The position numbers and the translations under genes were made by a program. A DNA stretch of 64,000 nt from Kiritimatiellia bacterium. GTDB lineage: Bacteria > Verrucomicrobiota > Kiritimatiellia > WLWN01. A model generated the notes under the pieces. That model saw only the letters and a list, made by a program, of their open reading frames with translations, did not search any database and had not been told where the DNA came from. Numbering within the stretch: the stretch's first letter is position 1; each line of letters starts with the position of its first letter. The stretch covers positions 1,802,538-1,866,537 of the forward strand of contig WLWN01000001.1 of NCBI GenBank assembly GCA_012103575.1, read 5' to 3'. Positions 1,159 to 52,573 of the stretch are shown here, piece after piece.

Positions 1159-2475
1159 ATGTTTCACTCGAGAAAAGAAAGAGAAAATCCGGAAGAAAGT
1201 TATCTGGCACCGTATGCCGCGCGTAATACTCAAACTCGAGGACGGGTCTACGCTGAAACCCAACATGATTACCGCACGGAGTTTCAACGTGACCGCGATC
1301 GGATTATTTACAGTCGATCGTTTCGTCGACTCGAGTACAAAACCCAAGTTTTCATTAATGGAACAGCGGACCATTACAGAACCCGTCTCACCCATACCTT
1401 TGAACTGCCGGCCATTGGTCGTACTCTTGCACGTGCTTTGCGCGTTCATGAGGATGTTACAGAAGCAATCGCACTTGCACACGACATTGGGCATAGTCCT
1501 TTTGGTCATGTAGGCGAGAGAGAGCTGGATCATCTCATGCACGCACATGGTGGATTTGACCATAACATTCAAAGTCTCCGTTGGGTCGAACAATTGGAAG
1601 AACGCTACCCTCATTTCTCAGGATTAAATCTTACATGGGAGGTTCGGGCAGGACTCCGAAAACATTTAGCGGCGAGGCCCCAAGAGACCCTCGATGATCA
1701 CCCGATTGGCCCCTTTCAATACGCCGAGGCCCAAATCGCGGATGTGGCTGACGACATTGCATACTATGCACATGATATTGAAGACGCCCTTGAATCAGGC
1801 ATTGTTTCCAGGCGCCAACTCCCAGAGCTCGAAATATGGAAGAAGGCTTAGCAACGAGCTCGAGCCCAATTTACGAGTATTCCCGAGGCCTATGAAGCGC
1901 ATACCATCATTCGGTCTTTGCTGGATATGTTAGTAGAAGATGTGATTCAAACAAGCTTGCAACGATTAGATACATATAAACCAGAGTCTCCTGAAGCCAT
2001 CATGCAATGTTCTCAACGCGTAGTCACGTTTAGCCAAGAAATGATGGGAATGATTGATGTATACCTGGATTCGTCAGTTAAACGCGGTTTTCTGCACGAA
2101 CCATTTGGGCCAAAAGGAATTACAAAAAAGCCTCGACGCACCCAGCGGGTGTGCCTGCGTTTTTTTGCAACCTTTTGCCTCCAAAGCATTCGCATAGAAA
2201 TCCCACGTTTAACTGACGGATCCAGGGTATACAGAACCTTTCTGTTTAAAAACGTATATCATCATTTTTCTGTAGATAAGGCCCACCAGGAAGCTGTCCA
2301 CATGATGAAAAGGCTTTTCCAGCATTACGTGTATGACCCTCAAGACATGGGGCATAAAGCACAAGCGCGGCTAAAAAAGGAAGGACGTTGGCGTACGGCG
2401 TGTGATTATGTCTCTGGGATGACAGATCGGTATGCGATTGAAGAATATCAAAAGTTTGGTTTGAATAAAAGATAA
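1159..2475 (+). pseudogene. dgt: Deoxyguanosinetriphosphate triphosphohydrolase-like protein, with an internal TAG and an in-frame MITE
   Basis: The protein is a Dgt/dNTP triphosphohydrolase of the HD superfamily. It has RLEYKTQV near residue 58, THTFE near 79 and the HD motif AHDIGHSPFGH at about 107-117 that binds the catalytic metal. Such enzymes hydrolyse dNTPs to deoxynucleosides and triphosphate. Codon 231 (1849-1851) is TAG, with the frame continuing as QRARAQFTSIPEAYEAHTII. A full 163-bp MITE lies at 2064-2226 with GTATA duplications and is read in frame as 56 extra codons. Removing it restores the native join MGMIDVYRTFLFKNVYHH. Without the insert the gene is about 382 codons, normal for the short Dgt type. 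The TAG would end translation halfway, so the gene is probably inactive unless suppressed. A C-to-T change of CAG is my inference. GDPD follows 9 bases after the TAA. Confidence 0.85.
2064..2226 (+). mobile_element. 163-bp palindromic MITE, copy 1 (in-frame in dgt)
   Basis: Full copy with ends CCTGGATTCGTCAG and CTGACGGATCCAGG, flanked by GTATA at 2059-2063 and 2227-2231. In this phase (element base 1 is codon position 3) the element has no stop and is translated as LDSSVKRGFLHEPF... to PRLTDGSR. Target duplication plus element equals 168 bp, so the downstream dgt frame is kept. Confidence 0.93.
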
Positions 2476-2484
2476 TCGGATTAT

Positions 2485-3234
2485 ATGCACATCATTGCAC
2501 ATCGCGGCGCATCACAGGGTGCCCCTGAAAACACAATAGCAGCCATTCGTCTAGCTTGGGACCAAGCCGCTGATGGTGTAGAGCTAGACCTTCGTTTGAC
2601 GAAGGACGGAAAGATCGTGGTGATACACGATGCCAGCACTCAGAGAACAGCGTGTGAAGACGTTCACATAGCTGATCAGGATTTTGAACAATTGCAGAAA
2701 CTTGACGCGGGAAGCTGGTGGAGTGACAGGTGGAAAAAGGAAAAGATTCCTTCACTGGAAGAGACGCTAAATTTCGTGCCTAAAAACAAACATCTTTTTC
2801 TAGATATTAAGTGCGGTGAAGAAATTGCTCCTGCATTAAAACACATCTTAGAGAAAACGAGTCTGCCTAGAGACAACGTTGTCTTTGTTGGAAAAGATTT
2901 AACAATCATACAAGCATTAAAGAAGTCGTGTTCTTTGTATCGTGTTTTATATAGTGTTTCTCATCGTAAAAATGGAAAAAGACCCATCTGGGCAGCAACC
3001 ATTGATCATTGGATCTCTCAGGCTGTGCAAGCAGGACTCGATGGCCTTGGCCTCGACGCTCGGACTAAAATCGATCCATATACGATCAAAGCCATCAAAG
3101 ATTCAAGGGTGCATCTGTTTGCTTGGACCGTAGATTCTCCTAAAGAAGTTCAACGTCTTCAGGGTTTAGACGTCACAAGCCTTGCTACAAACTGTCCGGG
3201 CCTCGTCAAGCCCAACAGAGATAGAGCCGTTTAA
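2485..3234 (+). CDS. Glycerophosphodiester phosphodiesterase family protein
   Basis: This 249-residue protein is a complete GDPD-family TIM barrel. It opens with IIAHRGAS, giving the catalytic HRG at residues 6-8, followed by PENT at 14-17, metal ligands ELD at 33-35 and the second catalytic His in VIHDAS (His48). LFLDIK and FAWTVDS later in the chain are typical of the barrel. The family hydrolyses deacylated glycerophospholipids to glycerol 3-phosphate and an alcohol. No signal peptide is present, so a cytoplasmic location is likely. It follows dgt by 9 bases, suggesting one transcript. Intact, standard length. Confidence 0.9.
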   Translation: MHIIAHRGASQGAPENTIAAIRLAWDQAADGVELDLRLTKDGKIVVIHDASTQRTACEDVHIADQDFEQLQKLDAGSWWSDRWKKEKIPSLEETLNFVPKNKHLFLDIKCGEEIAPALKHILEKTSLPRDNVVFVGKDLTIIQALKKSCSLYRVLYSVSHRKNGKRPIWAATIDHWISQAVQAGLDGLGLDARTKIDPYTIKAIKDSRVHLFAWTVDSPKEVQRLQGLDVTSLATNCPGLVKPNRDRAV

Positions 3235-3548
3235 AGTAGATGGCGTGCTGACCAAGGGCCATGAGTTTTCCTTTTGACAAGATGGGCTTAGATCGTAATG
3301 CGGCGGGAAGTATTGCAGGCCATCAAAAAAATTTAAAATACTGGCTAGTTGGCAGAATTTAAACATGATACTCTGTATTAACAAACAAGTCTAGAAAAGG
3401 ACAATTGTGTAAAAGTTGAACCCCTTAAAAGGGGCGTTTATGATAGATTCAAGTTCTGCTCCAAAATTTTCGAGTTTTGATGTCGCGTCGCTATCCCTTG
3501 AATGGTATCCTCGACTTAAAATAATAATACCTGATTTAGAATCCCGCG
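3235..3548. other. 314-bp non-coding gap with a small hairpin
   Basis: No convincing gene is visible. A short inverted repeat (CCCCTTAAAAGGGG, 3421-3434) could form a weak hairpin. A short open frame from the ATG at 3439 runs into the HPt gene in another frame and has no recognisable product; it may be eroded 5' sequence of the signalling locus. The gap presumably holds the promoter for the HPt gene. Confidence 0.4.
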
Positions 3549-4055
3549 ATGGATGCATATCAAGTTGGCTCCTTAGACCTAATCGATGACGAGTTGTTTG
3601 AAGTGTTTGCATCTGAAGCAGAACTAAAGGCTGAAAGCCTTAACAGTGCGATGGTGTCGCGGAATCTAAATCAAATCGCGGAGGATGCTCATTCGATTAG
3701 GGGGATCGGAGGCGCTATGGGATTTCCTGAAATTTCTGTTTTAGCTGAAAAGTTAGAATTAGCATCTAAAGAAGCCGGATTAGATCGTTGTGTGGAGCTT
3801 GTTCAAACGTTTGGGTCATGGAATATAAATCTTTCCAGAATAAATGGAAGACAGGTAAACCTAGATCCGGCCGTTAAACACGGGAGTTCTGTCCGAATGC
3901 TTTGGAGGCAAAAGGTTAAAAAAAATGTAGGCATACCCACAGGGTGCGTCGAGGTCTTTTTTGGAGTTCCTTTTAGTCTAAATGATTCGTGTAAAAAACC
4001 GCGTTTAACGGCCCGATCCAGGGTAAAGATAAAGGAGGCATGGGGACTGTTATGA
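3549..4055 (+). CDS. HPt-domain phosphotransfer protein carrying a MITE-encoded C-terminal tail
   Basis: Residues 1 to about 100 look like a histidine phosphotransfer domain. The motif AHSIRGIGGAMGF around His48, followed by LAEKLE, matches the phospho-accepting helix, and IDDELFEVFASEAEL matches helix 1. The protein would shuttle phosphate between a kinase and the downstream receiver domain. From about residue 105 to 158 the sequence is encoded by a diverged full-length MITE (3860-4022), followed by about 11 host codons. The MITE portion has two compensating indels, so the frame stays open. The TGA stop overlaps the ATG of the next gene (ATGA), indicating translational coupling with the response-regulator fusion. 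A native C-terminus is not recognisable after the insertion. HPt call is by motif. Confidence 0.72.
   Translation: MDAYQVGSLDLIDDELFEVFASEAELKAESLNSAMVSRNLNQIAEDAHSIRGIGGAMGFPEISVLAEKLELASKEAGLDRCVELVQTFGSWNINLSRINGRQVNLDPAVKHGSSVRMLWRQKVKKNVGIPTGCVEVFFGVPFSLNDSCKKPRLTARSRVKIKEAWGLL
3860..4022 (-). mobile_element. 163-bp palindromic MITE, copy 2 (old subfamily, in-frame in the HPt gene)
   Basis: Ends CCTAGATCCGGCCG and GGCCCGATCCAGG with GTAAA duplications at 3855-3859 and 4023-4027. It lies opposite to copy 1. Compared with the young copies it has many substitutions, one base missing near the A-tract (about 3918-3927) and one extra base before the T-tract (about 3954), so total length is still 163 bp and the host frame is open. 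Confidence 0.9.
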
Positions 4056-5693
4056 TATCAAAAAGGGACGTTCCAGACGTGTCAAACGGCACCTCGATTT
4101 TATCACCAGAGACACAGGGTCGTATATTAGTTGTCGATGATAAACGACTGAACAGATTGTTCATGGAAAAAATTTTTAAGGAAGCATGGATATGAAGTGT
4201 TTCTGGCTAAAAATGGTGAGGAAGCCTGTGCTATGGTTCGAGCCTATTTACCTGAGTTGATGCTTGTGGATGTTGCCATGCCGACCATGAATGGCTACGA
4301 GGTATGCGAAAACGTTAAGACCGATCCCCTTACACAAGATATTCCTATTATTATGGTCACCGCCAAAAACGAGATAGAAGATGTTGAGCGCGCGTTTGAT
4401 ATAGGCGCTATGGATTATATACGCAAGCCGTTTGACCCCCGGGAGCTGATTGTTAGGGTCCGAACCGCGCTCGAGCTAAAACATAGCAGTGATGCGCTAC
4501 ACCGTTGGACACGTAAAATGTCACGTGAATTAGAATTGGCGGGATCTTTTCAACGCACACTTATGTCAACGGCCCCATTTTTGACTCAAGAAATAGAAGT
4601 GCGAATTGCATATCGTCCTTCATTAGATGTGGGTGGAGATGTTTTTGATATTATACCATTATCGGATGGGCGGATATGTGTCTATGCAAGTGATATCTGT
4701 GGACATGGCGTTGCCCAGGCTATGCTCTCCTCCATGGTAAAAGCAACGTTGGCGGAGCTTATTCCAAATCTAGCTCATGCAGGTGTCAGCGCGATTTGTG
4801 CTCAACTTCATAGGCGATTTAGAGAGCAAATCGAAGATCCTTCTCTTTATGCAACCGTTTTTATATGTATTTTGGATCCTGCCACCAATCAGGCCCAGTG
4901 TCTAAACTGTGGGCATCCTTCCCCTATACGGTTAGGGCCCGATCATGAAGTACAAAAAGATATCTTTAATGAAAAAGGAGGGTTTCCCATTGGGTTGGCG
5001 GTAGCCGATGATTCCCCTTGCTCAGAAGAAGATAAAGTGGACTGGGAAATGGTTCAGGGTTCTTCGCTGTTCATTTATACCGACGGACTTACCGAAGCTC
5101 GACATAAAGATACGAACCGGGAGTGCGGGAAAGAAAAATTAATAAAATTTTCCGAAGAGGTCTGCAAAGATGATACAATTACAGATCCGTCTTCCGAAGT
5201 ATTTGAAATGATCAAACGCGCTGGATACAGACTGGATGATGATTGTACAGGTGTTTTTATACAACTTGTTGATCCCGAAAGCGTAGTCGCAAGTGAAAAA
5301 ATCCCGTGTATACTCTCTGCCATTCCGGACATTGCTATGAAAGCCAGCCAAAAACTTGGTGGGCGAGCATGGCCTGAAAAAGTTGTAACGTTGGTAGAAC
5401 TATTAATTATCGAACATTGTACCAACGTGTTGGATCATGGGGCTCCTCCAGAAAATTCGTTCATTAATATGCAACTACGGGTATCAGAAAACATTTGCAA
5501 GCTTCTTTTTGTGGACAAAGGGAGAAAATGGGGTCATGAACGGCGGCTTGCCCAAGCAAGCTTTCCTCGCCAAGAGTCAGAAAGGGGACGTGGATTGACC
5601 ATTCTTAAAAGGATTGCAAACTTTATTGAAATCCACCGTCGCAACAATGAAAATATCATTTTTTACACGGTTCCAAGAAATCTTGCCTTTTGA
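4052..5693 (+). pseudogene. Response regulator fused to RsbU-type PP2C phosphatase and RsbW-type ATPase domain (one frameshift)
   Basis: From the ATG at 4052 the first frame gives ILVVDDKRLNRLFMEKIFKEA, a receiver-domain start, then hits a TGA. The next frame resumes at about 4193 as GYEVFLAKNGEEA and continues to 5693. One surplus base at about 4188-4193 separates them. The restored protein has a receiver domain with the phospho-acceptor in LVDVAMPTMNG and the Lys in YIRKPFDP. A SpoIIE/RsbU-like PP2C domain follows (LDVGGDVFDI, ASDICGHGVAQAML), then a C-terminal HATPase_c domain (IIEHCTNVLDHG, GRGLTILKRI). Such fusions control sigma factors by partner switching: the phosphatase dephosphorylates an anti-anti-sigma and the kinase-like domain binds it. 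The upstream HPt protein is the likely phosphodonor. It could be a sequencing error or a real lesion. Confidence 0.82.
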
Positions 5694-5905
5694 GGTGCGC
5701 ATCTTGATCGCACTACCGAAAAGTGGTAAACGAGGCTAAAAAATGTAAGTCAGTCTGAGCTGTAAAATGCCCTGTATGGTTGCTGGGGGGTGTTCGATTA
5801 CTATTCTACCTCTTGACCTCCCAAAGGATAAGGGGTAGAGCTACTCCATGTAAAGAGAGATAGCCCGTTAGTGCGGGCAGGAACAAATAATAAGGAGAAA
5901 CGATA

Positions 5906-6607
5906 ATGCGAAGAATGATTCAGTGGTCATGTGTTGTTACTATGACCTGGATCCGTCAGTTAAACGCGGTTTTCTGCACGAACCATTTGGGCCAAAAGGA
6001 ATTACAAAAAAGCCTCGACGCACCCAGCGGGTGCGCCTGCGTTTTTTTGCAACCTTTTGCCTCCAAAGCATTCGCACAGAAATCCCACGTTTAACTGACG
6101 GATCCAGGTATGATTGTATGTATGACATCTATAGGATCTTATGCACAGGGTTTTGGACTTAAAAAAGGGCTTAAAATTCCAAAGCCTGAACTCACTCCAT
6201 CTGTGAGTTTAGAGGATGTAGCTCAGTATATTGAGATGTATGTTGAAAAAAATTCCAGCAATGGTGTTTACCCCATGCGAGATGATGAAGAAAATACAGT
6301 TCTTGCATTAACACTCGATAAGGTGCATCGAGAGCGGTTGTCAAAAATTGCCGATGCCACCTATTTTGTCTGTGCAGACTTTAGCCATAGTGACGGAACT
6401 GTTTATGATTTAGACTTTTTTGTCTTGGGTGTAAGCAAGGATACTTTAAAGGTCCTTCCGAATAAAACATCGATTCATAAAAAAGCCGGCGTTGCACGGT
6501 ATACATGGCATGAAAAGGCTGGTGTTTGGGAGCAAAAACCGGTGGAGACCACAGCGAGCGAGAGCGAGCATCCGGAACACCCCGAGCACCCCGAACACCC
6601 AGAGTAG
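5906..6607 (+). pseudogene. Small secreted protein with C-terminal HPE repeats, signal peptide split by a MITE
   Basis: A strong ribosome site (AAGGAG) precedes the ATG at 5906. If the MITE at 5946-6108 and one TATGA duplication are removed, the start reads MRRMIQWSCVVTMIVCMTSI then GSYAQG, a textbook signal peptide. Here the MITE is in its stop phase: translation from 5906 ends at 6094. The second TATGA copy recreates an ATG at 6110 in the native frame, giving a shortened leader MIVCMTSIGSYA. The mature part (about 155 residues) has no family I recognise and ends in four or five tandem HPE units encoded by 9-base repeats. It precedes a transglutaminase-like secreted protein and may act with it. 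Export of the shortened form is doubtful. Confidence 0.7.
5946..6108 (+). mobile_element. 163-bp palindromic MITE, copy 3 (in a signal-peptide coding region)
   Basis: Consensus copy, ends CCTGGATCCGTCAG and CTGACGGATCCAGG, with TATGA duplications at 5941-5945 and 6109-6113. Element base 1 falls at codon position 2, the phase that meets a stop about 50 codons in. The downstream TATGA supplies the restart ATG at 6110. Confidence 0.94.
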
Positions 6608-6620
6608 AGGATCGATACTC

Positions 6621-7623
6621 GTGTTAAGATTAAGCGTTTATATGAGGGTCATAACTGTTTTAGTTATGACCCTTGCTTACACAAGTCTTTCCGCTGAGAT
6701 CAGTCCTTCGGAGCGAACGGTTGAATTTACATATGGATTTACGATTCAGAATATCCCTGTTGATGCACAGAAAATTATAGCCTGGGTTCCCATTCCTTAC
6801 ATTGACGAGTACTAGCAGCTACTGAGTATACGCGTTGAAGGAGCTAGGCCATATAAGCAACTGAGGGATCCCTTATACGGGAACCGATATCTTTGCTTTG
6901 ATTTCTCTAATGTACTGCCTAGCAATAGAAATATAAAAGTCGAGGTTAAATTTGATATCCATCGGTTAGCCTATCGCGTTTTTGGAAAGGAAGCAGATCC
7001 CCCCCTTCTTTCCCGCAAGCTGTATGACCGGTTTTTAGCGCCAGACCGTTTGGTCCCTATTGATGGAGAAATTGGAAAAGAAGCAGATCGGATCGTTGGC
7101 AATATTAAAGATCCTTTGCCCCGTGCCCGCAAACTGTATGATCATATCGTCAACACCCTCGTTTATGATAAAAGCGGCAAAGGCTGGGGACAAGGTAATG
7201 CGGTGTATGCGTGTGATATCCGCAAAGGAAACTGTACGGACTTTCATTCTTTATTCATTGGTGAAGCGCGCCATCTAGGCATCCCTTCACGGTTTGCTAT
7301 TGGATTCCCTTTACCAGAAATGGGAAAAAGTGGTCCCATTAGGGGGTATCACTGCTGGGCGGAATTTTACGTACAAAAAATAGGCTGGGTTCCAATTGAT
7401 GCTTCTGAAGCTTTCAAATTTCCTGAAAAAAAAGAGATGTTTTTTTGGGGGACTAGATGCCCATCGGATTCTCTTCACAATCGGGCGCGATATATCAGTG
7501 CCTTTATCCAATGCCGGACCGGTTAACTATTCTATTTATCCACACGTTGAAGTTGACAACAAAGTGTATCCTGATGTGAAAAAGCATTTTTCATTCAAAG
7601 AACATGAAACTTCATCCGATTGA
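6621..7623 (+). pseudogene. Secreted transglutaminase-like protein (internal TAG and one frameshift)
   Basis: A GTG at 6621 (or ATG at 6642) starts a signal peptide (VITVLVMTLAYTSLSAE). The catalytic core of a transglutaminase-like domain is complete: Cys in RKGNCTDFHSLFI, His in RGYHCWAEFYV and Asp in GWVPIDASEA. Codon 65 (6813-6815) is TAG, after which the same frame continues QLLSIRVEGARPY. A surplus T in the run near 7439-7446 then shifts the frame; the native C-terminus GGLDAHRILFTIGRDI...KEHETSSD ends at TGA 7621-7623. Such periplasmic proteins are usually cysteine proteases or peptide-binding. With both lesions no full product is made. It lies 13 bases after the HPE-repeat protein, so one operon is likely. 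Confidence 0.82.
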
Positions 7624-7630
7624 GTTAAAT

Positions 7631-7664
7631 TACCGACCAAAGGGTAACGACCCTTTGGTCGGTA
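7631..7664. terminator. Strong hairpin, probable bidirectional terminator
   Basis: TACCGACCAAAGGG and CCCTTTGGTCGGTA form a perfect 14-bp stem with the loop TAACGA, just after the transglutaminase stop. It lies between convergent genes. The T-run (7678-7683) is 13 bases downstream, so termination may be factor-assisted or aided by the MITE remnant. Confidence 0.65.
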
Positions 7665-7673
7665 GGCTTGGCA

Positions 7674-7743
7674 GTGCTTTTTTCTAACCTTTTGTCTACA
7701 AAGCATTCGCACAGAAAACCCACGTTTAACTGCCGGATCTAGG
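7674..7743. mobile_element. MITE fragment (right half, old subfamily)
   Basis: Matches the right half of the 163-bp element, from the T-tract through GCATTCGCACAGAAAACCCACG to the end GCCGGATCTAGG. The left half is absent. Its outer end supplies the TAG stop of cofE. Confidence 0.75.
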
Positions 7744-9150: not shown

Positions 9151-9214
9151 GGTAATGTAAAAATGGTTTCTAGGCGCTATATAATACACAAAGTGGTTCG
9201 AGGTCGTTTCTATT

Positions 9215-10144: not shown

Positions 10145-10173
10145 TATTCAGGGTTCTCGGTTCAGGGGGGGTA

Positions 10174-14272: not shown

Positions 14273-15428
14273 ATGGAAAGAAGTGATCTACTTGCTATTG
14301 CTGACCAGACGCCCACTCCCTGTTATGTCATTCATGAAGGCGTGTTGCGTAAAAACCTCGACATACTCAAAGAAGTACAAGATCGAACTCACTGCAAAAT
14401 TTTCTTAGCGTTAAAGGGTTTTGCTGCATTTTGTACGTTTCCTTTACTCCGCAACGTGTTGCACGGAACTTGTGCGAGTTCTCTATACGAAGCGCGATTG
14501 GGCCGAGAAGAATTTGGAGGAGAAGTTCACGTGTATTCACCAGCCTACTCAGAACAGGATATGGCGGGCTTGCTTCCCCTTGTCGATCATATCATCTTTA
14601 ACAATTTTCAACAATGGCGTCGCTATCGTAAAGAAGTAAACCTCTGCAAACGACGTGTTGGAGTGGGCATTAGAATCAACCCTGAACATTCGGAGGGGGA
14701 CGTAGCACTCTATGACCCCTGCGTAGAAGCCTCCCGTCTAGGCTCGACGATAAAGGTCTTTGAGGGCGAGTCGCTGGACGGTATTTTCGGGGTTGCACTT
14801 CCATACGTTATGCGGGCACAACGCAGATGCACTTGAGCGAACATTGCAGGTGGTCGAAAAAAAATTCGGTCATTTTTTTACCGACTTAGTGTGGATAAAT
14901 TTTGGGGGTGGTCATCATATTACGCGTTCGGATTACGATCTGGATAAACTGTGTGATGCCATCGTGCACGTCCAAGAGACGTATGGCGTGCACGTCTATC
15001 TCGAACCCGACGAAGCCGTGGCCCTCGAAGCAGGAGTGCTCCTATCATCGGTTCTCGACATCGCCGAGAATGACGCCCATATAGCGATACTGGACACATC
15101 AACAACAGCCCATATGCCGGATGTTTTAGAGATGCCGTATAGGCCCGATGTATTTGATGCAGGCCAGCCACACGAAAAGAAATATACCTACCGTTTAGGC
15201 GGGCAGACGTGTTTAGCCGGTGATGTTATCGGCGACTATTCTTTTGATAAACCCCTCTGTATCGGGCAAAAAATTGTTTTTATGGATATGGCTCATTATA
15301 CCATGGTCAAGAACACGATGTTTAATGGCATCGGGCTTCCTTCGATAGCCACGTACGACCCCCAAACCGAGAGGGTTACTCTGGTCAAAACGTTTGATTA
15401 CCATGATTACAAAAATCGCTTATCCTAG
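14273..15428 (+). pseudogene. nspC: Carboxynorspermidine decarboxylase (one frameshift)
   Basis: NspC is the PLP-dependent alanine-racemase-fold decarboxylase that makes norspermidine or spermidine from the carboxy form. The N-terminal frame has TPCYVIHEGVLRKNL, the PLP lysine in FLALKGFAAF (about Lys48) and ASSLYEARLGREEF. The second frame gives GLHFHTLCGHNADALE, WINFGGGHHITR, EPDEAVAL and GQTCLAGDVIGDYSF. One base is missing near 14784-14790, where the sequence should read DGIFSGLHFHTL. The stop TAG lies inside the end of a MITE fragment. With the nearby speA half-gene, it indicates a polyamine pathway that is eroding or mis-sequenced. Confidence 0.85.
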
Positions 15429-15483
15429 ATCTGCCAGTTAAACACCGTTTTCTGTACGAATCATTTGAGCCAACATGAATCGG
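15424..15483. mobile_element. MITE fragment (left part, old subfamily)
   Basis: CCTAGATCTGCCAGTTAAAC and the following 40 bases match the left arm of the 163-bp element, then similarity fades. The first bases supply the TAG stop of nspC (TCC TAG), in the same phase as in cofE. Confidence 0.75.
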
Positions 15484-16691: not shown

Positions 16692-17255
16692 TTACGATAG
16701 AGGTGTCGCGATGTAGCACGAAGAAAACCAGCTGATTACCTCGTCGGGAGAAACCTCTTCGAACGCTTGTGTGAGCGTTTCAGATAGTTCCTGCTGACTG
16801 CGGGCTGCAAGGCTGCCCAACCGATTCTTTATCTTGCTCCACATTTTTTCAATGGGGTTGGAATCGGGGCTGTAGGGTAGAAGGAATCTTACATGGGCCC
16901 CACATGACTCAATGAGTTCAATGACCTTGGGATTGTGATGGACGCGAAGATTGTCCATGATGACGATGTCTTCAGGTGAAAGAGTTGGGAGAAAAACCCG
17001 ACGAATATATTCTCCAAAAACAGCCGTGTCTGTCGCCCCCTCCCCCTCCATGGCCGCTGTTGTTCCGTCCAGGCGGACCGAAGAAATCAAGGTGGTGGTA
17101 CACCAATGTCCATGAGGCGTTTTGGTAAAAAGCCTGTTCCCGCCCAACGCCCGGCCCCGCAGACGAGTCATATTCGTTTTCGCCCCGGATTCATCAATAA
17201 AGACAAGGCGACTTGGATCAAGTTTGGCCACCTCTTGGATCCACTGCTTTCTCAA
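16692..17255 (-). CDS. IS630 transposase orfB (DDE catalytic part)
   Basis: 187 residues carrying the catalytic DDE triad: Asp in RLVFIDESGAKTN, Asp in IVIMDNLRVHHNPKVIELI, and Glu in LPYSPDSNPIEKMWSKIKNR. It overlaps orfA by 38 bases in the +1 frame. It may be made as a fusion by frameshifting or started separately at the ATG at 17255. This domain cuts the element ends and inserts at TA. Confidence 0.88.
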   Translation of the reverse strand: MRKQWIQEVAKLDPSRLVFIDESGAKTNMTRLRGRALGGNRLFTKTPHGHWCTTTLISSVRLDGTTAAMEGEGATDTAVFGEYIRRVFLPTLSPEDIVIMDNLRVHHNPKVIELIESCGAHVRFLLPYSPDSNPIEKMWSKIKNRLGSLAARSQQELSETLTQAFEEVSPDEVISWFSSCYIATPLS

Positions 17256-17631
17256 GAGATTTACATCCGCCCGGTCTTGCTCGCTGGCGTGAAGCGTTTC
17301 TTTTATACCGGCAGCCCAACCGATTCAACGCCCGCTGTACGGCCATGATCGACCCCTTCACGCCGCTCATGTCCTTGAGTTCTTCAAGCGTTGCATCGGG
17401 ATGTTTGCCCCCCAGTTGAGCCAACGCCTTGAGCTGCTTTCCGCTGTAGAGGGCCTGACGATGCCCACGCGGTCGGGGAGCGGTCTGTCCGGTTTCGTTG
17501 AAACGAGAGAGCCCACGCTGAAACGTTCTAAGATCTACACGATAAGAAGATGCGATATCGGCCTGGGAACCTTTGCCCATTTTGTAGGCATCTATCGCAC
17601 GCCGCCAGATTTCTGCTGTTGCTATACTCAT
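17218..17631 (-). CDS. IS630 transposase orfA (helix-turn-helix part)
   Basis: 137 residues. AYKMGKGSQADIASSYRVDL is a helix-turn-helix like those at the N-terminus of IS630 transposases, followed by a second DNA-binding region (LGGKHPDATLEELKDMSG). The reading frame needed to continue into orfB is +1 relative to this one; the change would occur near the AAAAGAAACGC stretch (about 17305), where orfB's frame continues as KETLHASEQDRADVNLL. The final residues of orfA after RYKR are therefore probably not native. The same arrangement is present in copy 2. Confidence 0.85.
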   Translation of the reverse strand: MSIATAEIWRRAIDAYKMGKGSQADIASSYRVDLRTFQRGLSRFNETGQTAPRPRGHRQALYSGKQLKALAQLGGKHPDATLEELKDMSGVKGSIMAVQRALNRLGCRYKRNASRQRARPGGCKSLEKAVDPRGGQT

Positions 17632-18189: not shown

Positions 18190-18352
18190 CCTGGATCCGT
18201 CAGTTAAACGTGGGATTTCTGTGCGAATGCTTTGGAGGCAAAAGGTTGCAAAAAAACGCAGGCGCACCCGCTGGGTGCGTCGAGGCTTTTTTGTAATTCC
18301 TTTTGGCCCAAATGGTTCGTGCAGAAAACCGCGTTTAACTGACGGATCCAGG
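18190..18352 (-). mobile_element. 163-bp palindromic MITE, copy 6 (recombination junction)
   Basis: Consensus full copy. The flanks do not match (ATAAC at 18185-18189, GTCAA at 18353-18357), unlike other full copies. GTCAA instead pairs with 16589-16593 beside an 18-bp MITE end, so this copy joins two formerly separate loci. Confidence 0.92.
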
Positions 18353-23931: not shown

Positions 23932-24139
23932 AATATCATCATCCTGTTCTTTCTTTTTTGTTCATGGTTAAGCCACCAAATGAGCTAGAGAATGGGTCAG
24001 GTTATCTAAAATTTTTCGATCTTTTTTTCTGACAACCGGCCGAGCAGTCCATTATAAATCAATCGCTCTCCTTGCGGAGCCAAGAAGTTTACATGCCTGT
24101 GTATAGGATAAACGCGAAAGTCTATCTTGTTCCTGAATC

Positions 24140-24164
24140 CGTCAGATAAAATCTGACGATTTTT
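24140..24164 (+). terminator. Inward-facing terminator hairpin at the IS1380 left end
   Basis: CGTCAGAT and ATCTGACG form an 8-bp stem with loop AAA, followed by ATTTTTC. It would stop outside transcripts from entering the transposase, a known self-limiting device of insertion sequences. The same hairpin is in copies B and C. Confidence 0.65.
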
Positions 24165-24236
24165 CATTACCTGTTGGGCTAAAGCGGGGAGGATACCCGT
24201 ATTCAAACAAACAACCCCACCCCAACAGGTGTGTAT

Positions 24237-25573
24237 ATGAAACAATATAAAATAAAGACTGGCAAGGGCGAACTCAACAGCACAAGCGGAAATCATCTTT
24301 GCGGCCTGCTGCTTGAGGATCATGCTCAACGGATTCTTCCCTCCAATTTTCAACCACGCCGCTCCGATGCGATCTCTGATCGGGAGATCCTCCTTACCCA
24401 GATCGGCTTACTTTGCAACGGTCGAACCGATTTCAATGATATCGACCTGTACCGGGGTGATGAGATTTTTATGAATGCCTTTGGACTTAAAAAGGGGAGT
24501 TAAAAAGGTAGCCTCTGAGCCGGTGTTCCGACGTCGTTTCGACGACCTGCCCCCAGCCAGAACCCATGTGGGGCTACGCAAACTCAACACCGAACTTCTT
24601 TCCTCGGGCCCCTTTGGCTAGGTAGATGTCGAAGGGCTTGATCTTGTTCCCGTCGATATCGATGTGAGCCCTTTAAGTCACTCAGGCTCTTCAAAAGAAG
24701 GCGTTTCCTACACCTAGAAGGGCCATGATGGTTACGCCCTGATATTTGCCTATGTGGGCACTCAAGGCCACATGCTTGAGTGCGAACTTCGACCCGGTAA
24801 ACAACATTGTCAGTCGGGAACGACCGCGTTTATTGCCCGCAGCGTTGAAACGCTCCAAACCCTGGGCCTGGGTGGAAAATGTTTGCTTCGGCTTGATAGT
24901 GGCAACGCTGCGGCCGATAACTTCGACGCTTTTGGGGATCATTATTTCATCGTAAAGCGAAATCCTCACCGCGAATGTCCTGAACAAATGCTGGCCCTTG
25001 CACGCCGAGTTGGAGACAAACAAGACAGTCGTGAAGGCAAGAACGTTTACACAGGCTTTTTCGATCATTTCCATCCCGGTGGTGACCAAAACCGCCCTTG
25101 TGTCCCGGTGGCCTTCGAAGTGATTGAACGCACCATCGATATCGATGGTCAGAAACTTCTGGTTCCTAAACTTGAGGTGAACACCTGGTGGACGAACCTC
25201 TCTTGTCGTGCCAAGACGGTGCTAGATCTCTATCATGGACATGGCCCCAGCGAGCAGTACCACAGTGAACTCAAAAGCGATCTTGATGTTGAGCGATTGC
25301 CTTCGGGGAGACTCTGTGCCAATAAGATTATTCTGTTATGCGCCATGGTAGCCTTCAACCTATTGCGCGGTCTTGGCCAAGAGGTCATCAAACGGGCTGG
25401 GCTTGCCCCGCAGAAAATCAACATCCCGCGCTGGCGAATCAAAACGGTTCTCAAAAATATCGTTTATTGCGCGGTTCGATTAGGTCCGCCACGCCGGACG
25501 AATTGAACTTCACTTTGGCAAGCGTTGTCGCTGGTTTGAAGTGATACAAGATATTGCCCATTCCTTCGCATAG
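24237..25573 (+). pseudogene. IS1380-family transposase, copy A (frameshifts and TAG stops)
   Basis: Recognisable as a group 1 DDE transposase: DAISDREILLTQIGLLCNGR, VPVDIDVSPLSHSGSSKEGV, KGHDGYALIFAYVG, ECELRPGKQHCQSGT, LLRLDSGNAAADNF, LYHGHGPSEQYHSELKSDLD and LPSGRLCANKIIL. Lesions are a surplus G after GLKKG (about 24497), TAG at 24619-24621 (before VDVEGLDLVP), TAG at 24715-24717 (between SYT and KGHDG), and an extra A near 25483 that removes the HSFA end. The first three are identical in all three copies; the last is private. No active enzyme can be made from this copy without recoding. Confidence 0.88.
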
Positions 25574-25790
25574 CCCTCCGTGCACCTTTAACAATACTCT
25601 AAGGCGACTGCCCAAGGAGGCCTACGCCCCAAAATGGTCAAATCAGAGTGAATCTGACCTGTACGCTCAAAAAATTCATCAGGGTGATACTTGCCGGTCC
25701 CAATCCGCCTAAAAGCGAGCATCTCAAGGAAAAAATTTTCAACTTTTGAGCCCCAAAACACCTTCCGAAGCGATAGCTGACGGATTCAGG

Positions 25791-27367: not shown

Positions 27368-29025
27368 CCTGAATCCGTCAGCTATCGCTTCGGAAGGCGT
27401 TTTGGGGCTCAAAAGCTGAAAATTTTTTCCTTGAGATGCTCGCTTTTGGGCGGATTGGGACCGGCAAGTATCACCCTGATGAATTTTTTGAGCGTACAGG
27501 TCAGATTCACTCTGATTTGACCATTTTGGGGCGTAGGCCTCCTTGGGCAGTCGCCTTAGAGTATTGTTAAAGGTGCACGGAGGGCTATGCGAAGGAATGG
27601 GCAATATCTTGTATCACTTCAAACCAGCGACAACGCTTGCCAAAGTGAAGTTCAATTCGTCCGGCGTGGCGGACCAATTGAACCGCGCAATAAACGATAT
27701 TTTTGAGAACCGTTTTGATTCGCCAGCGCGGGATGTTGATTTTCTGCGGGGCAAGCCCAGCCCGTTTGATGACCTCTTGGCCAAGACCGCGCAATAGGTT
27801 GAAGGCCACCATGGTGCATAACAGAATAATCTTATTGGCACAGAGTCTCCCCGAAGGCAATCGCTCAACATCAAGATCGCTTTTGAGTTCACTGTGGTAC
27901 TGCTCGCTGGGGCCATGTCCATGATAGAGATCTAGCACCGTCTTGGCACGACAAGAGAGGTTCGTCCACCAGGTGTTCACCTCAAGTTTAGGAACCAGAA
28001 GTTTCTGACCATCGATATCGATGGTGCGTTCAATCACTTCGAAGGCCACCGGGACACAAGGGCGGTTTTGGTCACTACCGGGATGGAAATGATCGAAAAA
28101 GCCTGTGTAAACGTTCTTGCCTTCACGACTGTCTTGTTTGTCTCCAACTCGGCGTGCAAGGGCCAGCATTTGTTCAGGACATTCGCGGCGAGGATTTCGC
28201 TTTACGATAAAATAATGATCCCCAAAAGCGTCGAAGTTATCGGCCGCAGCGTTGCCACTATCAAGCCGAAGCAAACATTTTCCACCCAGGCCCAGGGTTT
28301 GGAGCGTTTCAACGCTGCGGGCAATAAACGCGGTCGTTCCCGACTGACAATGTTGTTTACCGGGTCGAAGTTCGCACTCAAGCATGTGGCCTTGAGTGCC
28401 CACATAGGCAAATATCGGGGCGTAACCATCATGGCCCTTCTAGGTGTAGGAAACGCCTTCTTTCGAAGAGCCTGAGTGACTTAAAGGGCTCACATCGATA
28501 TCGACGGGAACAAGATCAAGCCCTTCGACATCTACCTAGCCAAAGGGGCCCGAGGAAAGAAGTTCGGTGTTGAGTTTGCGTAGCCCCACATGGGTTCTGG
28601 CTGGGGGCAGGTCGTCGAAACGACGTCGGAACACCGGCTCAGAGGCTACCTTTTTAACTCCCCTTTTTAAGTCCAAAGGCATTCATAAAAATCTCATCAC
28701 CCCGGTACAGGTCGATATCATTGAAATCGGTTCGACCGTTGCAAAGTAAGCCGATCTGGGTAAGGAGGATCTCCCGATCAGAGATCGCATCGGAGCGGCG
28801 TGGTTGAAAATTGGAGGGAAGAATCCGTTGAGCATGATCCTCAAGCAGCAGGCCGCAAAGATGATTTCCGCTTGTGCTGTTGAGTTCGCCCTTGCCAGTC
28901 TTTATTTTATATTGTTTCATATACACACCTGTTGGGGTGGGGTTGTTTGTTTGAATACGGGTATCCTCCCCGCTTTAGCCCAACAGGTAATGAAAAATCG
29001 TCAGATTTTATCTGACGGATTCAGG
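27368..29025 (-). mobile_element. IS1380-family insertion sequence, copy B (1658 bp), inverted relative to A
   Basis: Ends match copy A. Left flank AACAA (27363-27367) is the complement of A's left flank TTGTT; right flank TAATA (29026-29030) resembles the complement of A's right flank (TAAAA). Sequence is nearly identical to A, so the pair can recombine. Confidence 0.9.
27585..28920 (-). pseudogene. IS1380-family transposase, copy B
   Basis: Same protein as in copy A, carrying the same surplus G after GLKKG and the same two TAG codons. It keeps the native C-terminus (HFGKRCRWFEVIQDIAHSFA), which A has lost. From 28403 to 27585 the catalytic part is open without a break. Confidence 0.87.
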
Positions 29026-40069: not shown

Positions 40070-40070
40070 T

Positions 40071-42930: not shown

Positions 42931-42931
42931 A

Positions 42932-45000: not shown

Positions 45001-45236
45001 TCTGCGTCAGCCTAAGGGAAAAGGATCCTATCATGCACTAATTTTTAATCGGATCGGCCACAATCCGATGTATTCATTATTTCCATGTGGGAAACATACA
45101 TCTTCTAGTGGTGCATTCAAGTTTTTATCTTTGAGACCCATCTAAAAAACAAATAACGTCCCGATCAGATGAGTCCATTGGAATAACTGAACGAATGACT
45201 TTTCCCTTATTCGTGCTTCCTATTTGTGCAAAATTT

Positions 45237-46799: not shown

Positions 46800-46806
46800 G
46801 TAGGAT

Positions 46807-47604
46807 TTATTTTCTTGCCATAGCATGGACCCGTTGAAAGGCATGCCAAATAGAATTGCGGGACCCTTCTATGCGTACACGTTTTTGTGGATTCCTAAAA
46901 ATCTGACGAACCGAAGTCGTGGGACTCTGAATATTAAACGTAGAAGAAACGATAATCCCGTATGTCCCAATCTGTCTTTCTTCCCCCTCGAAAGGTAATG
47001 GATCGGAACCTGCAACCATAAACCCTTTATGGCTAGCCCAGCGCATGACTCGAGGTTCCGGCCATATGTTCGGTCTTAAGGGTATATCCCCCACTATTAC
47101 TTCTCCGAGTTCATATTGTTTGAGGATATTTTTCACAATCCGGCCCCTTTTGAAAAACCATTTGCCAAGTGACCAACTAAGTACAGGGATCCCGTTAGCG
47201 TCGCGAATAGCGTTGATCACATTGTGGATGGGTTTCCCTTCCAGGTCGTTGATATCAGTGGTTAGTGCAAGAACCTCTATATTTTCTTGGGTAACAATTT
47301 GCCGCCCAGCGATCAGGTAAAGAGCCTTTCCTTTTGGGCTGCGCAACAAAATGGAGCTCTCATCTGGACAGGATTCGAGTTGATAATCTGTGCTTTCCAG
47401 AAGTTGTCCTTCTTTCAATTTCCTAAAAAAGAAAGTGCCATGTCGTTCTGTTAGGAAAAGCATCATTACAGGATCGGTGCCAGCAGATTCTGAATAGCCG
47501 TGATTACGTTGATACAGCTCTTCTAGATTGTTACATGCCATATCAAATACCTCTGACAGGTCATAACAATCGTATAGATGCACATGTGTATCAGCAATAA
47601 GCAT
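46807..47604 (-). CDS. Uncharacterised protein with PHP-like opening
   Basis: 265 residues. It starts MLIADTHVHLYDCYDL, which resembles the first metal-binding strand of PHP or amidohydrolase proteins (D-T-H-V-H). Later segments include GIPVLSWSLGKWFFKRGRIV and GFMVAGSDPLPFEGEERQIG, giving a TIM-barrel flavour, but I cannot match it to a named family. No signal peptide. It stands alone between the FAD lipoprotein gene (convergent) and IS1380 copy C, which lies about 90 bases upstream of its start and may affect its promoter. Confidence 0.65.
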   Translation of the reverse strand: MLIADTHVHLYDCYDLSEVFDMACNNLEELYQRNHGYSESAGTDPVMMLFLTERHGTFFFRKLKEGQLLESTDYQLESCPDESSILLRSPKGKALYLIAGRQIVTQENIEVLALTTDINDLEGKPIHNVINAIRDANGIPVLSWSLGKWFFKRGRIVKNILKQYELGEVIVGDIPLRPNIWPEPRVMRWASHKGFMVAGSDPLPFEGEERQIGTYGIIVSSTFNIQSPTTSVRQIFRNPQKRVRIEGSRNSIWHAFQRVHAMARK

Positions 47605-47693
47605 GGGATGATGAGTTATTCCTTAATTTGCAAAGAATCATTATACCTTTTTACCGAGAGATTGCAATGTGTCCCCCAATGGCATTATCTATT

Positions 47694-49352
47694 CCTGAAT
47701 CCGTCAGCTATCGCTTCGGAAGGCGTTTTGGGGCTCAAAAGTTGAAAACTTTTTCCTTGAGATGCTCGCTTTTGGGCGGATTGGGACCGGCAAGTATCAC
47801 CCTGATGAATTTTTTGAGCGTACAGGTCAGATTCACTCTGATTTGGCCATTTTGGGGCGTAGGCCTCCTTGGGCAGTCGCCTTAGAGTATTGTTAAAGGT
47901 GCACGGAGGGTTATGCGAAGGAATGGGCAATATCTTGTATCACTTCAAACCAGCGACAACGCTTGCCAAAGTGAAGTTCAATTCGTCCGGCGTGGCGGAC
48001 CAATCGAACCGCGCAATAAACGATATTTTTGAGAACCGTTTTGATTCGCCAGCGCGGGATGTTGATTTTCTGCGGGGCAAGCCCAGCCCGTTTGATGACC
48101 TCTTGGCCAAGACCGCGCAATAGGTTGAAGGCCACCATGGCGCATAACAGAATAATCTTATTGGCACAGAGTCTCCCCGAAGGCAATCGCTCAACATCAA
48201 GATCGCTTTTGAGTTCACTGTGGTACTGCTCGCTGGGGCCATGTCCATGATAGAGATCTAGCACCGTCTTGGCACGACAAGAGAGGTTCGTCTACCAGGT
48301 GTTCACCTCAAGTTTAGGAACCAGAAGTTTCTGACCATCGATATCGATGGTGCGTTCAATCACTTCGAAGGCCACCGGGACACAAGGGCGGTTTTGGTCA
48401 CCACCGGGATGGAAATGATCGAAAAAGCCTGTGTAAACGTTCTTGCCTTCACGACTGTCTTGCTTTGTCTCCAACTCGGCGTGCAAGGGCCAGCATTTGT
48501 TCAGGACATTCGCGGCGAGGATTTCGCTTTACGATGAAATAATGATCCCCAAAAGCGTTGAAGTTATCGGCCGCAGCGTTGCCACTATCAAGCCGAAGCA
48601 AACATTTTCCACCCAGGCCCAGGGTTTGGAGCGTTTCAACGCTGCGGGCAATAAACGCGGTCGTTCCCGACTGACAATGTTGTTTACCGGGTCGAAGTTC
48701 GCACTCAAGCATGTGGCCTTGAGTGCCCACATAGGCAAATATCAGGGCGTAACCATCATGGCCCTTCTAGGTGTAGGAAACGCCTTCTTCCGAAGAGCCT
48801 GAGTGACCTAAAGGGCTCACATCGATATCGACGGGAACAAGATCAAGTCCTTCGACATCTACCTAGCCAAAGGGGCCCGAGGAAAGAAGTTCGGTGTTGA
48901 GTTTGCGTAGCCCCACATGGGTTCTGGGTGGGGGCAGGTCGTCGAAACGACGTCGGAACACCGGCTCAGAGGCTACCTTTTTAACTCCCCTTTTTAAGTC
49001 CAAAGGCATTCATAAAAATCTCATCACCCCGGTACAGGTCGATATCATTGAAATTGGTTCGACCGTTGCAAAGTAAGCCGATCTGGGTAAGGAGGATCTC
49101 CCGATCAGAGATCGCATCGGAGCGGCGTGGTTAAAAATTGGAGGGAAGAATCCGTTGAGCATGATCCTCAAGCAGCAGGCCGCAAAGATGATTTCCGCTT
49201 GTGCTGTTGAGTTCGCCCTTGCCAGTCTTTATTTTATATTGTTTCGTATACACACCTGTTGGGGTGGGGTTGTTTGTTTGAATACGGGTATGCTCCCCGC
49301 TTTAGCCCAACAGGTAATGAAAAATCGTCAGATTTTATCTGACGGATTCAGG
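47694..49352 (-). mobile_element. IS1380-family insertion sequence, copy C (1659 bp)
   Basis: Ends CCTGAATCCGTCAG and CTGACGGATTCAGG with the perfect duplication TCTATT on both sides (47688-47693 and 49353-49358). The intact duplication means this copy has not recombined. Inserted between the PHP-like gene and the end of the caspase-like gene. Confidence 0.93.
47911..49253 (-). pseudogene. IS1380-family transposase, copy C
   Basis: Same lesions as in copies A and B (surplus G after GLKKG, two TAGs). Private changes: the ATG used in A and B is ACG here, a TAG replaces TGG between NTW and TNLSC (about 48292), and an extra base near 48460 shifts the frame at GDK. It cannot encode a working enzyme. 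Confidence 0.87.
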
Positions 49353-49362
49353 TCTATTGGGA

Positions 49363-50469
49363 TTAATCTGTATTTTCCCGCAAAAAGACAAACGCGCCAT
49401 CTTGACGGGAGAAGTCTGTCAACGACCCCATCCGAACGATACGATCTGTGAATATGCCGACTTTTTCCCGGAGCGCTTGGCCCAGGTCCACGGCTGAAAA
49501 CACAGGCGGGCCGTCTTTTAAGTAATGTAAAAGTGCCCCCGTAAAAATGCTATGTTTACCCGCATTATCGATCACGGGTTCTAATCCTCCACTGGTAATA
49601 ATATACCGAGATGGAATAGTCACCTGTTCGGCATATTCGGAAAGGGGAAGATTCGGCGAAGAAAGGGGTCCTTTCCCATTAACCTGGATCCGTCAGTTAA
49701 ACGCGGTTTTCTGCACGAACCATTTGGGCCAAAAGGAATTACAAAAAAGCCTCGACGCACCCAGCGGGTGCGCCTGCGTTTTTTTGCAACCTTTTGCCTC
49801 CAAAGCATTCGCACAGAAATCCCACGTTTAACTGACGGATCCAGGATTAATTAATGAACCGCTAAAACATGCGTCTGATAAGGTAAGAATGTGTCGGGCT
49901 CCAGATGTCTGAACCAACCGGGTGATTTCAGTATTCCATATCCAGTTTCCGATCACTTGAAATGAATCGCTTTTTTTTCTCGCGTCAGAAGGGATCCAGA
50001 ACCCTTCGTCCAATAGTTGGTTATAATCGCCATGACCCGAAAAGTAGATAAGCACAGCGTCCATATAATTCAACGCTTGAAGTTTCTGCAGGGCGAAAAA
50101 AATAGCATCGCGTGTAGCTTCTTTGTCGAACAATCGCTGTACATGAAAATGATACTTCTGTTCTAAAATGTTAGCGACGGCTTCTGCATCGTGTCGTGCC
50201 ACAGGAAGGGGCGTCCATCCGTTCTTATCCCGCTGTGCATAGTCGCTTATGCCAATGACAAGTGCATGATAAGAAAGGCCAAAAGGCCCCTTTTGAAGGG
50301 TGGGAATTTCGGATGGGAAATGGGCTTCCTGTTCTTGACTGCAGCCGGACCCTAAACCTCCGAGCAAGCAGCAGGATAGGAGAGCCCGAAACAGATCCGA
50401 GCTATAAATCTTCAATCTTTTCATTCTTTTTCTTTGCCTACTTGTTTTTGATATTTGGATTTGGGTCAA
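49363..50469 (-). pseudogene. Caspase-like (peptidase C14) secreted protein cut by a MITE in stop phase
   Basis: A signal segment (FRALLSCCLLGGLGSGC, lipobox-like) leads into a caspase-type p20 domain: YHALVIGISDYAQ, LPVARHDAEAVANILEQKYH, the catalytic His in YFSGHGD, and the catalytic Cys in TLSDACFSGSL. The MITE at 49683-49845 follows directly, in its stop phase, and ends the protein GSLINPGSVS. Without it, the gene continues NGKGPLSSPNLPLSEYAEQV, TIPSRYIITSGG and HSIFTGALLHYL (the p10 part) to 49363. The large-subunit part with both catalytic residues is still encoded, but p10 strands are lost. Probably inactive. The gene upstream in the operon is the TPR lipoprotein. Confidence 0.85.
49683..49845 (+). 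mobile_element. 163-bp palindromic MITE, copy 9 (in the caspase-like gene, stop phase)
   Basis: Consensus full copy with ATTAA duplications at 49678-49682 and 49846-49850. Relative to the minus-strand host gene, element base 1 is the first base of a codon (CCT GGA TCC GTC AGT TAA), giving a stop after five element codons. Confidence 0.94.
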
Positions 50470-50496
50470 TAGCCACGATATCCTAATGACTTCTTC

Positions 50497-52573
50497 CTAT
50501 CTCGTATACCTGGATCCGTCAGTTAAACGCGGTTTTCTGCACGAACCATTTGGGCCAAAAGGAATTACAAAAAAGCCTCGACACACCCAGCGGGTGCGCC
50601 TGCGTTTTTTTGCAACCTTTTGCCTCCAAAGCATTCGCACAGAAATCCCACGTTTAACTGACGGATCCAGGGTATAGATAAAATCTCCTACCCGTATCTC
50701 TTCTTTCCCTTTTCGAGAAATAAGTCGCGCGGTACTTTCATCTAGTGCCGAACCGTGCACGACAACCTGTATGAGTTCTTTCTTAAACGTTTGGACAGGA
50801 CTTGTAGGGGCTTCCGAAACTATAAATCGAGACCACGGTTTAACCCCCTGACGTTTTCCTCTGTCTATTTTAACATCATATTTGCGCCAGAATCGTGATA
50901 GTTCGCTAATGGTCCCTTTTAATAAAGGAAAGGTTCGCTCAATTTTTTCTGTTAGTAGCTTGACTTGTTGATCAAGGTCATCGTTGACAGGTTCATAATA
51001 CACATTTTTTCAAACGACCAACGTTTCTGATTCTGTATCAGATACATCGGCCCGAATTGTTATTCCCGGCGGATGATCCACATTGAACTTAAGATCTACC
51101 CAGTATTCAGGGTTCTGATTGAGGGGCCTAATTTGAAAACGCATCGGCTCTACTAAAAGTTCAGATTTAAACTGCTGACGGGTTTCATTATACAAATTCG
51201 AAGTGTACGATCCAGGAATCAAGCCCATGGTGAGTCGATGTTCGTGATGCAAGTATTCAGCGAGTCTTCGGATTACTTTAATGTTCCGCTCATTTTTATT
51301 TCCTGCCACATCCTGGGCAAGAATCGAAAAATAATTTGTGCCCATTTCTAGAGCGAGCCTTTGCGTGAAGCGCTGCTCGACAAGCCCTTTTTTTTTAGAA
51401 TTTCTTGACCGTTGAGAATAATACTTCCCAATCCATTGGCATCACTCGCCCTTCCGTGCATATCAACTTCTTCATCAAAAGTGGACATAACCGAACTTAT
51501 ATTTAGATCCAAGTTCGGTTTGATATGATCTTGGGATAAAAGGGCCTCTTTCGGAGGTTTAGGCAAGCGCGGAGGTGGACTGTCTATCACTCCCTGAATA
51601 GGATTGGAGGCAAACTGATAAGGCCTACCCCTTTCGGCATATCGCTGTTCCAAATCGTTTGCAGAAAACGTGGTTTTAAAAAGACTGCCAGCCTGATCTT
51701 TGGCCTCAAAAAAAAGGGGTTGCTGAGGGTAGATCTCGAGGTGTACAGGTTGACTGGTTCCCTTTGACCATTGATCAAAAACCGTGCCGTACTTTATAGA
51801 AGCCAACGCAAAATTATCTATACATCTTCCGTCAATGATCCATTGATTTCCTTGTTTTTCAACTTTTTCGATCAATAGATCTGGGGGGTGTAAATCAACT
51901 GCCAACAGCATGGTTTTTGTTGCGTGTGCCCCTTTTAAATCTGTGGCTATAATGGTGACTTGATTAGATCCCTCTGGTAAAGAAAGGAGCGTTTCAAACG
52001 GAACTTTCTTTTCGGCCAATTCCATATATTGAGCATCACCCTGAATGGTAATTTTTTTCAATATATCCTGTACCATAAGCTGTGCCTGCAACCCTTTGTT
52101 TCCGTTTCCGCGTCCACACGGTATTTTCGGTTACAGACAGATCAATACGGGGTGGTGCCACCCTCATGTCTGCAAATTTTTCTTTTCGAACACGGTTCAG
52201 ATAAAGTTTTGTTCGGCCGGTGGGTTCTTGATCCAAGGACTGTTCTAAAAAATCAATGGCCGGATCAAGTTCTCCAAGCTGATACAGGCAAATGCCTAGT
52301 TCACGATTGGGGAAATAACTTTTCAATAAAATGAAGGCCGTGAGTTCGTACACGCCATCCATCTATATCATATCCAAAGATTGCACCTGGTCGAACTCCT
52401 AAGCACCGTTCAAAGCCCTCCTTGGCAAGCTGATACTGGCCCTCGGAAAAGTGACGGACTCCTTTGGTATAGAAATTCCACCACGTAGGATCATCGGTCT
52501 CTTCAAATTGGAGGAAAAGTTGGCAACTCGTGCAAAAAGCTATAGACCCTATAACAAGAAAAGAATAAACCAC
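50497..52573 (-). pseudogene. Large TPR-containing lipoprotein of the caspase operon (several frameshifts)
   Basis: Five frames in a row make one gene of about 690 codons. The first gives a lipoprotein start (FLVIGSIAFCTSC) and a TPR-like region (DPTWWNFYTKGVRHFSEGQY, DGWRVRTHGLHFIEKL). The next continues YFPNRELGICLYQLGELDPA. The following frames hold Ig-like beta domains (QVTIIATDLKGAHATKTMLL, NYFSILAQDVAGNKNERN). The last ends with an OB-like segment: KIDRGKRQGVKPWSRFIV and RKGKEEIRVGDFIYT. Breaks fall near 52310, at seven As (about 52051) and nine As (about 51392), and an in-frame TGA is at 51010. A MITE is inserted three codons before the native stop and is read in frame, adding 56 residues. 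It lies between the anti-sigma-like and caspase genes. Confidence 0.72.
50509..50671 (+). mobile_element. 163-bp palindromic MITE, copy 10 (in-frame, adds a C-terminal tail)
   Basis: Full copy with GTATA at 50504-50508 and 50672-50676. In the minus-strand host it is in the open phase; the product reads FIYTLDPSVKRGISVRMLWR... to PRLTDGSRYTR. Without it the native end is DFIYTR. Confidence 0.94.

Follow-up and report, generated by a model that had tools for sequence, protein, structure and literature searches.

Can a mobile element of 163 bp become part of the proteins whose genes it enters? The question is raised by a stretch of 64,000 nucleotides from a Kiritimatiellia bacterium (assembly GCA_012103575.1, contig WLWN01000001.1, positions 1,802,538 to 1,866,537), referred to here as the window, which carries six full copies of one palindromic miniature inverted-repeat transposable element (MITE). 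An earlier note on this DNA had pointed out that 163 bp and a 5-bp target site duplication (TSD) together make 168, a multiple of three, and that one phase of the element is open in both orientations. It took three host genes to have gained 56 residues each in this way, and drew a parallel with the Rickettsia palindromic elements (RPEs). We are confident, on counting copies across the genome, in a plainer description: a palindromic 163-bp MITE with at least 146 copies, likely moved by insertion sequences (ISs) of the IS1380 family, whose open phase is no commoner in genes than chance would give. Rather than building proteins, the family is probably made up of ordinary repeats. A MITE can resemble a designed protein insert in one 64-kb window, and the resemblance is lost once 146 copies are counted.

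The element and its copies

All six 163-bp copies lie where they had been placed (starting at 2064, 3860, 5946, 18190, 49683 and 50509), and their reading as a palindromic MITE with 5-bp duplications is supported. Exact TSDs flank five of them, the copy at 18190 being without one (ATAAC/GTCAA), and frame 1 lacks stops in both orientations in all six. Identity to the copy at 2064 is 97.5-100% for five window copies and ~83% for that at 3860. The element has terminal inverted repeats and no transposase gene, its palindrome spans the whole 163 bp, and the consensus fold reaches -86.6 kcal/mol.

In the 3.14-Mb genome, a 27-base core pattern (up to three mismatches) has 165 matches, 76 forward and 89 reverse, and no match when read backwards. 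Positions were assigned to 154 of these matches and the stretches around them fetched; BLAST on 99 fetched stretches and the window gave 163 copies, 146 full-length and 17 partial. The family has at least 146 full-length copies in one genome. The statement that an insertion never shifts the host frame is true of the 134 copies that are 163 bp long and fails for the remaining 12 (ten of 164 bp, one of 165 bp and one of 153 bp). Among the full-length copies, 102 have a perfect 5-bp TSD, 13 a TSD with one mismatch and 31 one with two or more, and the target site is AT-rich and symmetric, roughly AC-TWWWA-GT. The 126 young 163-bp copies differ from their own consensus at 0-8 positions, and 31 of them are identical to the commonest sequence; 12 older copies are ~9-19% diverged from the query. 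In a genome full of broken IS1380-family elements, the family offers an instructive example of what seems to be a recent MITE burst. Its target preference, phase and orientation also form a clean data set on how hairpin insertions are pruned by selection.

The two properties that suggested a protein insert can also be expected at some rate by chance. Length plus duplication will be a multiple of three one time in three, and one phase was open both ways in 9.2% of 20,000 random imperfect palindromes matched in length and composition. Because the element is a palindrome, the open phases of its two orientations are not independent.

Unusual arrangements are also found among the copies. MITE variants at L104:2001 and L075:2001 have two right-type arms, with an ungapped arm-to-arm identity of 1.0 and 0.87 respectively, compared with 0.6 in the consensus, and from their sequence they look like products of the conversion of one arm by the other. 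At L106:2001-2695 there is a tandem array (period 266 bp, 2.6 copies at 99%), which holds three MITE core matches spaced 266 bp apart.

Phase of insertions in genes

Genic copies were called using a coding model trained on 218 long open reading frames (ORFs), with each flank scored separately. In a first pass, which required a strict coding score of both flanks, 15 of the 146 copies qualified, three of them in the open phase; thresholds were then loosened and varied because this pass missed the in-phase locus L053. A copy was then called genic when each flank was open over 40 codons or more and the coding scores summed to more than -5. Of the 146 full-length copies 22 qualified, and six more had both flanks open with a coding score below the cut. 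When duplicates are collapsed, copies with both flanks coding fall into the three phases as 4, 6 and 8, the open phase accounting for 6/18. Including those copies that a coding frame enters on one side brought the calls to 34, five of which were dropped as duplicates (four of a DUF6788-gene family in the closed phase and one of an IS110 pair in the open phase), the weakly supported rows L078, L100, L086 and L113 staying in the count. Of the 29 independent insertions that remain, 11 are in the open phase (one third expected, p = 0.36).

The excess of the open phase over one third, which had been set beforehand as the genome-wide check, is thus absent from both counts. The open fraction in the both-flank test stayed within 0.17-0.38 at all 25 threshold settings tried, and target preference alone predicts 33%. 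Genic copies are not preferentially in frame, and the parallel with RPEs as inserts that proteins tolerate is not supported. The 56-residue read-throughs would be side effects, neutral or harmful, of a length that comes to 168 with the duplication by coincidence.

Host genes of the open and closed phases

The three window genes said to use the open phase do read through the element as described, with some corrections. The dgt gene has an in-frame TAG upstream of the element (Table 1), and the other two are read-ins at the 3' end, the HPt reading stopping 10 residues past the element and that of the 50509 gene three residues past it. This last gene (50497-51003) had been labelled a TPR lipoprotein, which the Pfam test did not bear out, as no Pfam family was found. 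Reassignment of TAG as a sense codon was considered and rejected: TAG ends 91 of 331 called genes, and the 22 internal stops seen in coding sequence are a mixture of 9 TAG, 8 TAA and 5 TGA. Since there is no sign in the genome of TAG being read as sense, the dgt TAG is taken as a lesion.

Another open-phase host is the UvrD-like helicase gene of L093, which reads through the element in phase. Downstream, near the end of the gene, the homologous reading shifts to another frame at a 7-base A-run, a change that may also be a sequencing error. Its homologues are ~47-49% identical, with records labelled Verrucomicrobiota, Kiritimatiellae and Thermoguttaceae among them. These two in-phase hosts, dgt and the helicase, look otherwise damaged. 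On another contig the helicase (P0009) has a different tail and ends just past the element; the assembly may be broken there at the repeat, and this copy was left out of the evidence. The protein kinase gene of L115 and the gene of L094 are in phase, but a 164-bp element breaks the frame in both, and the in-phase call at L078 has weak support.

Closed-phase copies cut conserved genes as well: the caspase-domain gene of the window, an O-methyltransferase gene, a CBS/TrkA_C gene and others. Pfam matches lie on both sides of the element in the O-methyltransferase and CBS/TrkA_C genes and only on the left side in the caspase gene. The latter (49366-50496, minus strand; PF00656) is cut by the MITE at 49683 directly after its DACFSG motif, which we take to be the catalytic site of a caspase-domain protein.

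Some insertions appear to have been copied along with their surroundings. L133, L069, L060, L044 and L107 have similar flanks with the MITE in the same closed phase, and represent one insertion that was duplicated; a DUF6788 match is found in the L133 gene. Near-identical transposase genes with a MITE near the 3' end are found at L097:1905-3452 and L093:4625-6106, both on the minus strand. The L097 transposase matches IS110-family models, and the MITE in these genes may travel with that IS.

IS1380-family elements as the likely source of transposase

Three repeats of 1.66 kb in the window encode broken pieces of a PF13701 transposase, PF13701 being the model for IS1380-family transposases. The end of the MITE, CCTGGATCCGTCAG, and that of these elements, CCTGAATCCGTCAG, are equal at 13 of 14 bases. 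Genome-wide there are 136 PF13701 matches, in places several per element, many with in-frame stops, of which TAG is the commonest; the IS1380-family population of this genome is large and largely broken. Paired ends 1586-1704 bp apart were found at 25 of 30 inspected PF13701 loci, an exact 5-bp duplication accompanies six of these 25 copies, and at one side of two IS copies the end is the variant of the MITE itself, CCTGGATCCGTCAG.

The local elements resemble the IS1380 family in their size (~1658 bp), 14-bp ends, PF13701 pieces and, in some, 5-bp duplications. For IS1247 of Paracoccus, a member of this family, the consulted part of the source gives 1672 bp, inverted repeats (IR) of 16/13 and a direct repeat (DR) of 5 (PMC3281130). 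The MITE itself differs from an IS of this family, as it is only 163 bp long, is without a transposase gene and has the ends alone in common. Because the ends match at 13 of 14 bases and some IS copies share the 5-bp duplication, comparison of the sequences points to IS1380-family elements as the likely transposase source. The MITE would have been transposed in trans by the transposase of these co-resident elements.

Points against, and the alternatives they favour

Several results weigh against this account of the element, and the first of them concern its mover. An exact 5-bp duplication is lacking in 19 of the 25 paired-end IS copies, and none of the 30 inspected loci (136 matches genome-wide) has an uninterrupted full-length transposase frame, which is why mobilisation in trans is something that we infer. 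The MITE could have been moved by another transposase, with the IS1380 end match being convergent or reflecting old shared ancestry only. The missing intact frame would agree with this, as would the dissimilarity of MITE and IS ends beyond the 14 end bases. Set against it are the 13 shared bases, the equal length of the duplications and the two IS copies with a MITE-type end on one side, and we regard another mover as quite unlikely.

The remaining points concern phase. With n = 29 the power is 86% if the true open fraction is 60%, and only 50% if it is 50%, and 11 of the 165 core matches are unplaced. The in-phase host L053 is open across 638 codons, and past the element it matches LicD and glycosyltransferase-25; no relative was found for its left part. 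Furthermore, the seven old copies of 163 bp hold three open-phase stops, where neutral simulation gives a mean of 8.0 (P = 0.055). This value takes the old-copy consensus as the ancestor; with the young consensus as ancestor, the neutral mean is 9.9 and P = 0.014. The set is small and was chosen for length 163.

This stop deficit bears on whether the element is RPE-like, with selection holding one phase stop-free so that genic insertions are tolerated as 56-residue inserts. Such selection would also fit the open phase in both orientations of 119 of the 146 full-length copies, and the reading through the element of dgt, HPt, the 50509 gene, the UvrD-like helicase and L053. However, it does not sit well with the 11 open-phase insertions out of 29, with the TAG in dgt and the continuation of helicase homology in another frame, or with the closed-phase insertions in the caspase-domain, O-methyltransferase and CBS/TrkA_C genes. 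The HPt copy (3860) is the one open-phase coding call among the seven old copies. For this reason, and because the set is small and length-selected, constraint on the palindrome may also explain the deficit. The deficit is the sole result leaning towards constraint on reading, at which it hints weakly, and we consider the RPE-like reading, which the phase count strongly lowers, very unlikely. Slighter still is the chance, left by the deficit (P = 0.055), that this is a second, independently evolved RPE-like system far from Rickettsia, in which an IS1380-linked MITE has arms kept stop-free and a 163+5 length that makes genic insertions survivable. If that were true, proteins such as the UvrD-like helicase would carry 56-residue mobile inserts.

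Position relative to genes

Only the 22 genic copies (~15%) are in genes, compared with ~60% expected from target preference; the size of this deficit is approximate because gene definitions differ somewhat and the stretches were chosen around copies. Selection would remove most insertions into genes, whatever their phase. An alternative is that the element is a mobile two-way transcription terminator, whose copies are kept between genes as insulators. A 251-base stretch has three terminator-like sites (two on the plus strand and one on the minus strand), compared with a mean of 0.4 in shuffles, and a terminator-like apex has been described for some other MITEs in the part of the literature consulted (PMC10969869). 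Most copies were not called genic, and in gaps between tandem genes 47 of 73 copies are nearer the upstream gene's end (p = 0.019), although this lean towards 3' ends may merely reflect promoter avoidance. Neighbouring genes are tandem for 73 copies, divergent for 45 and convergent for 23, compared with 69.7, 44.5 and 26.8 expected by gap length (p = 0.70), so that convergent gaps are not favoured. The simple gene caller used here places three of the 146 copies inside one called gene and two at a stretch edge. It counts the two parts of a gene interrupted by the element as separate neighbours, and therefore some genic copies fall in the tandem class. With no orientation bias, two-way termination was rejected as the reason for position; we keep it as a rival explanation and think it unlikely.

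Distribution and related systems

The search of the whole genome and of relatives proposed in the earlier note found many copies in the bacterium's own genome, and the family was not found in the other genomes searched. Among 38 genomes of relatives it was found in its own alone. In the class 2 of 288 genomes were found (its own and one with a 28-base match), and in the phylum 2 of 387 (its own and one with a 22-base match); the three sets overlap, and the class and phylum searches scored no more than two candidates per genome. Genome contigs were also scanned with a single exact 18-mer taken from the old copies, a scan that may omit records close to that of the window; the 11 stretches it gave have no match longer than 40 bases. 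Plasmids and phages gave no match at 1e-5. In a protein search with the HPt insert all seven candidates match; they lie on the genome's own contig or on contigs of ~11-23 kb, and are probably from the same or a near species.

RPE families were compared with the element by description. They are likewise palindromic and of similar size (105-150 bp), and some genes read the single phase that is open (PMC10969869, PMC2229807). RPEs are found in frame in many conserved genes, in 19 reading frames, and 11 of 12 homologs in other Rickettsia are in frame (PMC10969869, PMC2229807); one RPE-bearing enzyme is active (PMC2229807). Here, in contrast, genes hold ~15% of the copies, of which about one third are in phase. 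The target duplication of RPEs is given as '?' (PMC10969869, PMC2229807), compared with 5 bp here.

The Yersinia elements YPAL/RU-2 and ERIC/RU-1 are also hairpin MITEs with an open frame, some fused in frame to genes (PMC2229807, PMC2759123). YPAL/RU-2 has 168 bp and a 56-residue frame (PMC2229807), a size which recurs here. By description, again from parts of the sources, they differ in their hosts, and no IS1380 link is given (PMC2229807, PMC2759123). Titles and abstract openings of the papers found describe no IS1380-derived MITE read in frame, which is not proof that there is none. In kind the family is an ordinary IS-linked MITE, and its sequence seems new within the range of these searches.

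Features of the window

Table 1. Positions of the MITE copies, the IS1380-family elements and associated features in the window.
Feature	Position	Strand	Remarks
In-frame TAG of dgt	1849..1851	+	Upstream of MITE
MITE copy, 163 bp	2064..2226	+	TSD GTATA; open phase, inside dgt remnant
Older MITE copy, ~83% identical	3860..4022	-	TSD GTAAA; open phase, read-in near 3' end of HPt-domain gene
MITE copy, query used as consensus	5946..6108	+	TSD TATGA
Apex of 5946 copy	6006..6048		G+C-rich hairpin between A-run and T-run; terminator-like, both strands
Partial MITE copy, right arm	7678..7743	+	89%
Partial MITE copy, left arm	15424..15480	+	82%
MITE copy	18190..18352	-	No TSD
IS1380-family element	24132..25790		Ends CCTGAATCCGTCAG; transposase frames broken
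Second IS1380-family element	27368..29025		Same ends
Third IS1380-family element	47694..49352		Same ends
MITE copy	49683..49845	+	TSD ATTAA; closed phase (2 stops) of minus-strand caspase-domain gene
MITE copy	50509..50671	+	TSD GTATA; open phase, read-in at 3' end of minus-strand ORF 50497-51003

The window has further features. The receiver-domain gene that follows HPt may be broken near its start (4050-4200), and the ORF at 4197 has a Pfam match that starts at profile position 28. Between 54464 and 62488 there are three to four head-to-tail repeats of ~2.3-2.7 kb each, which encode long proteins; the three of these proteins that were tested had no Pfam match. The window also contains two similar IS copies, at 16692-17631 and 62741-63716, which are 97% identical over a 300-base piece and have a split-frame DDE_3 transposase.

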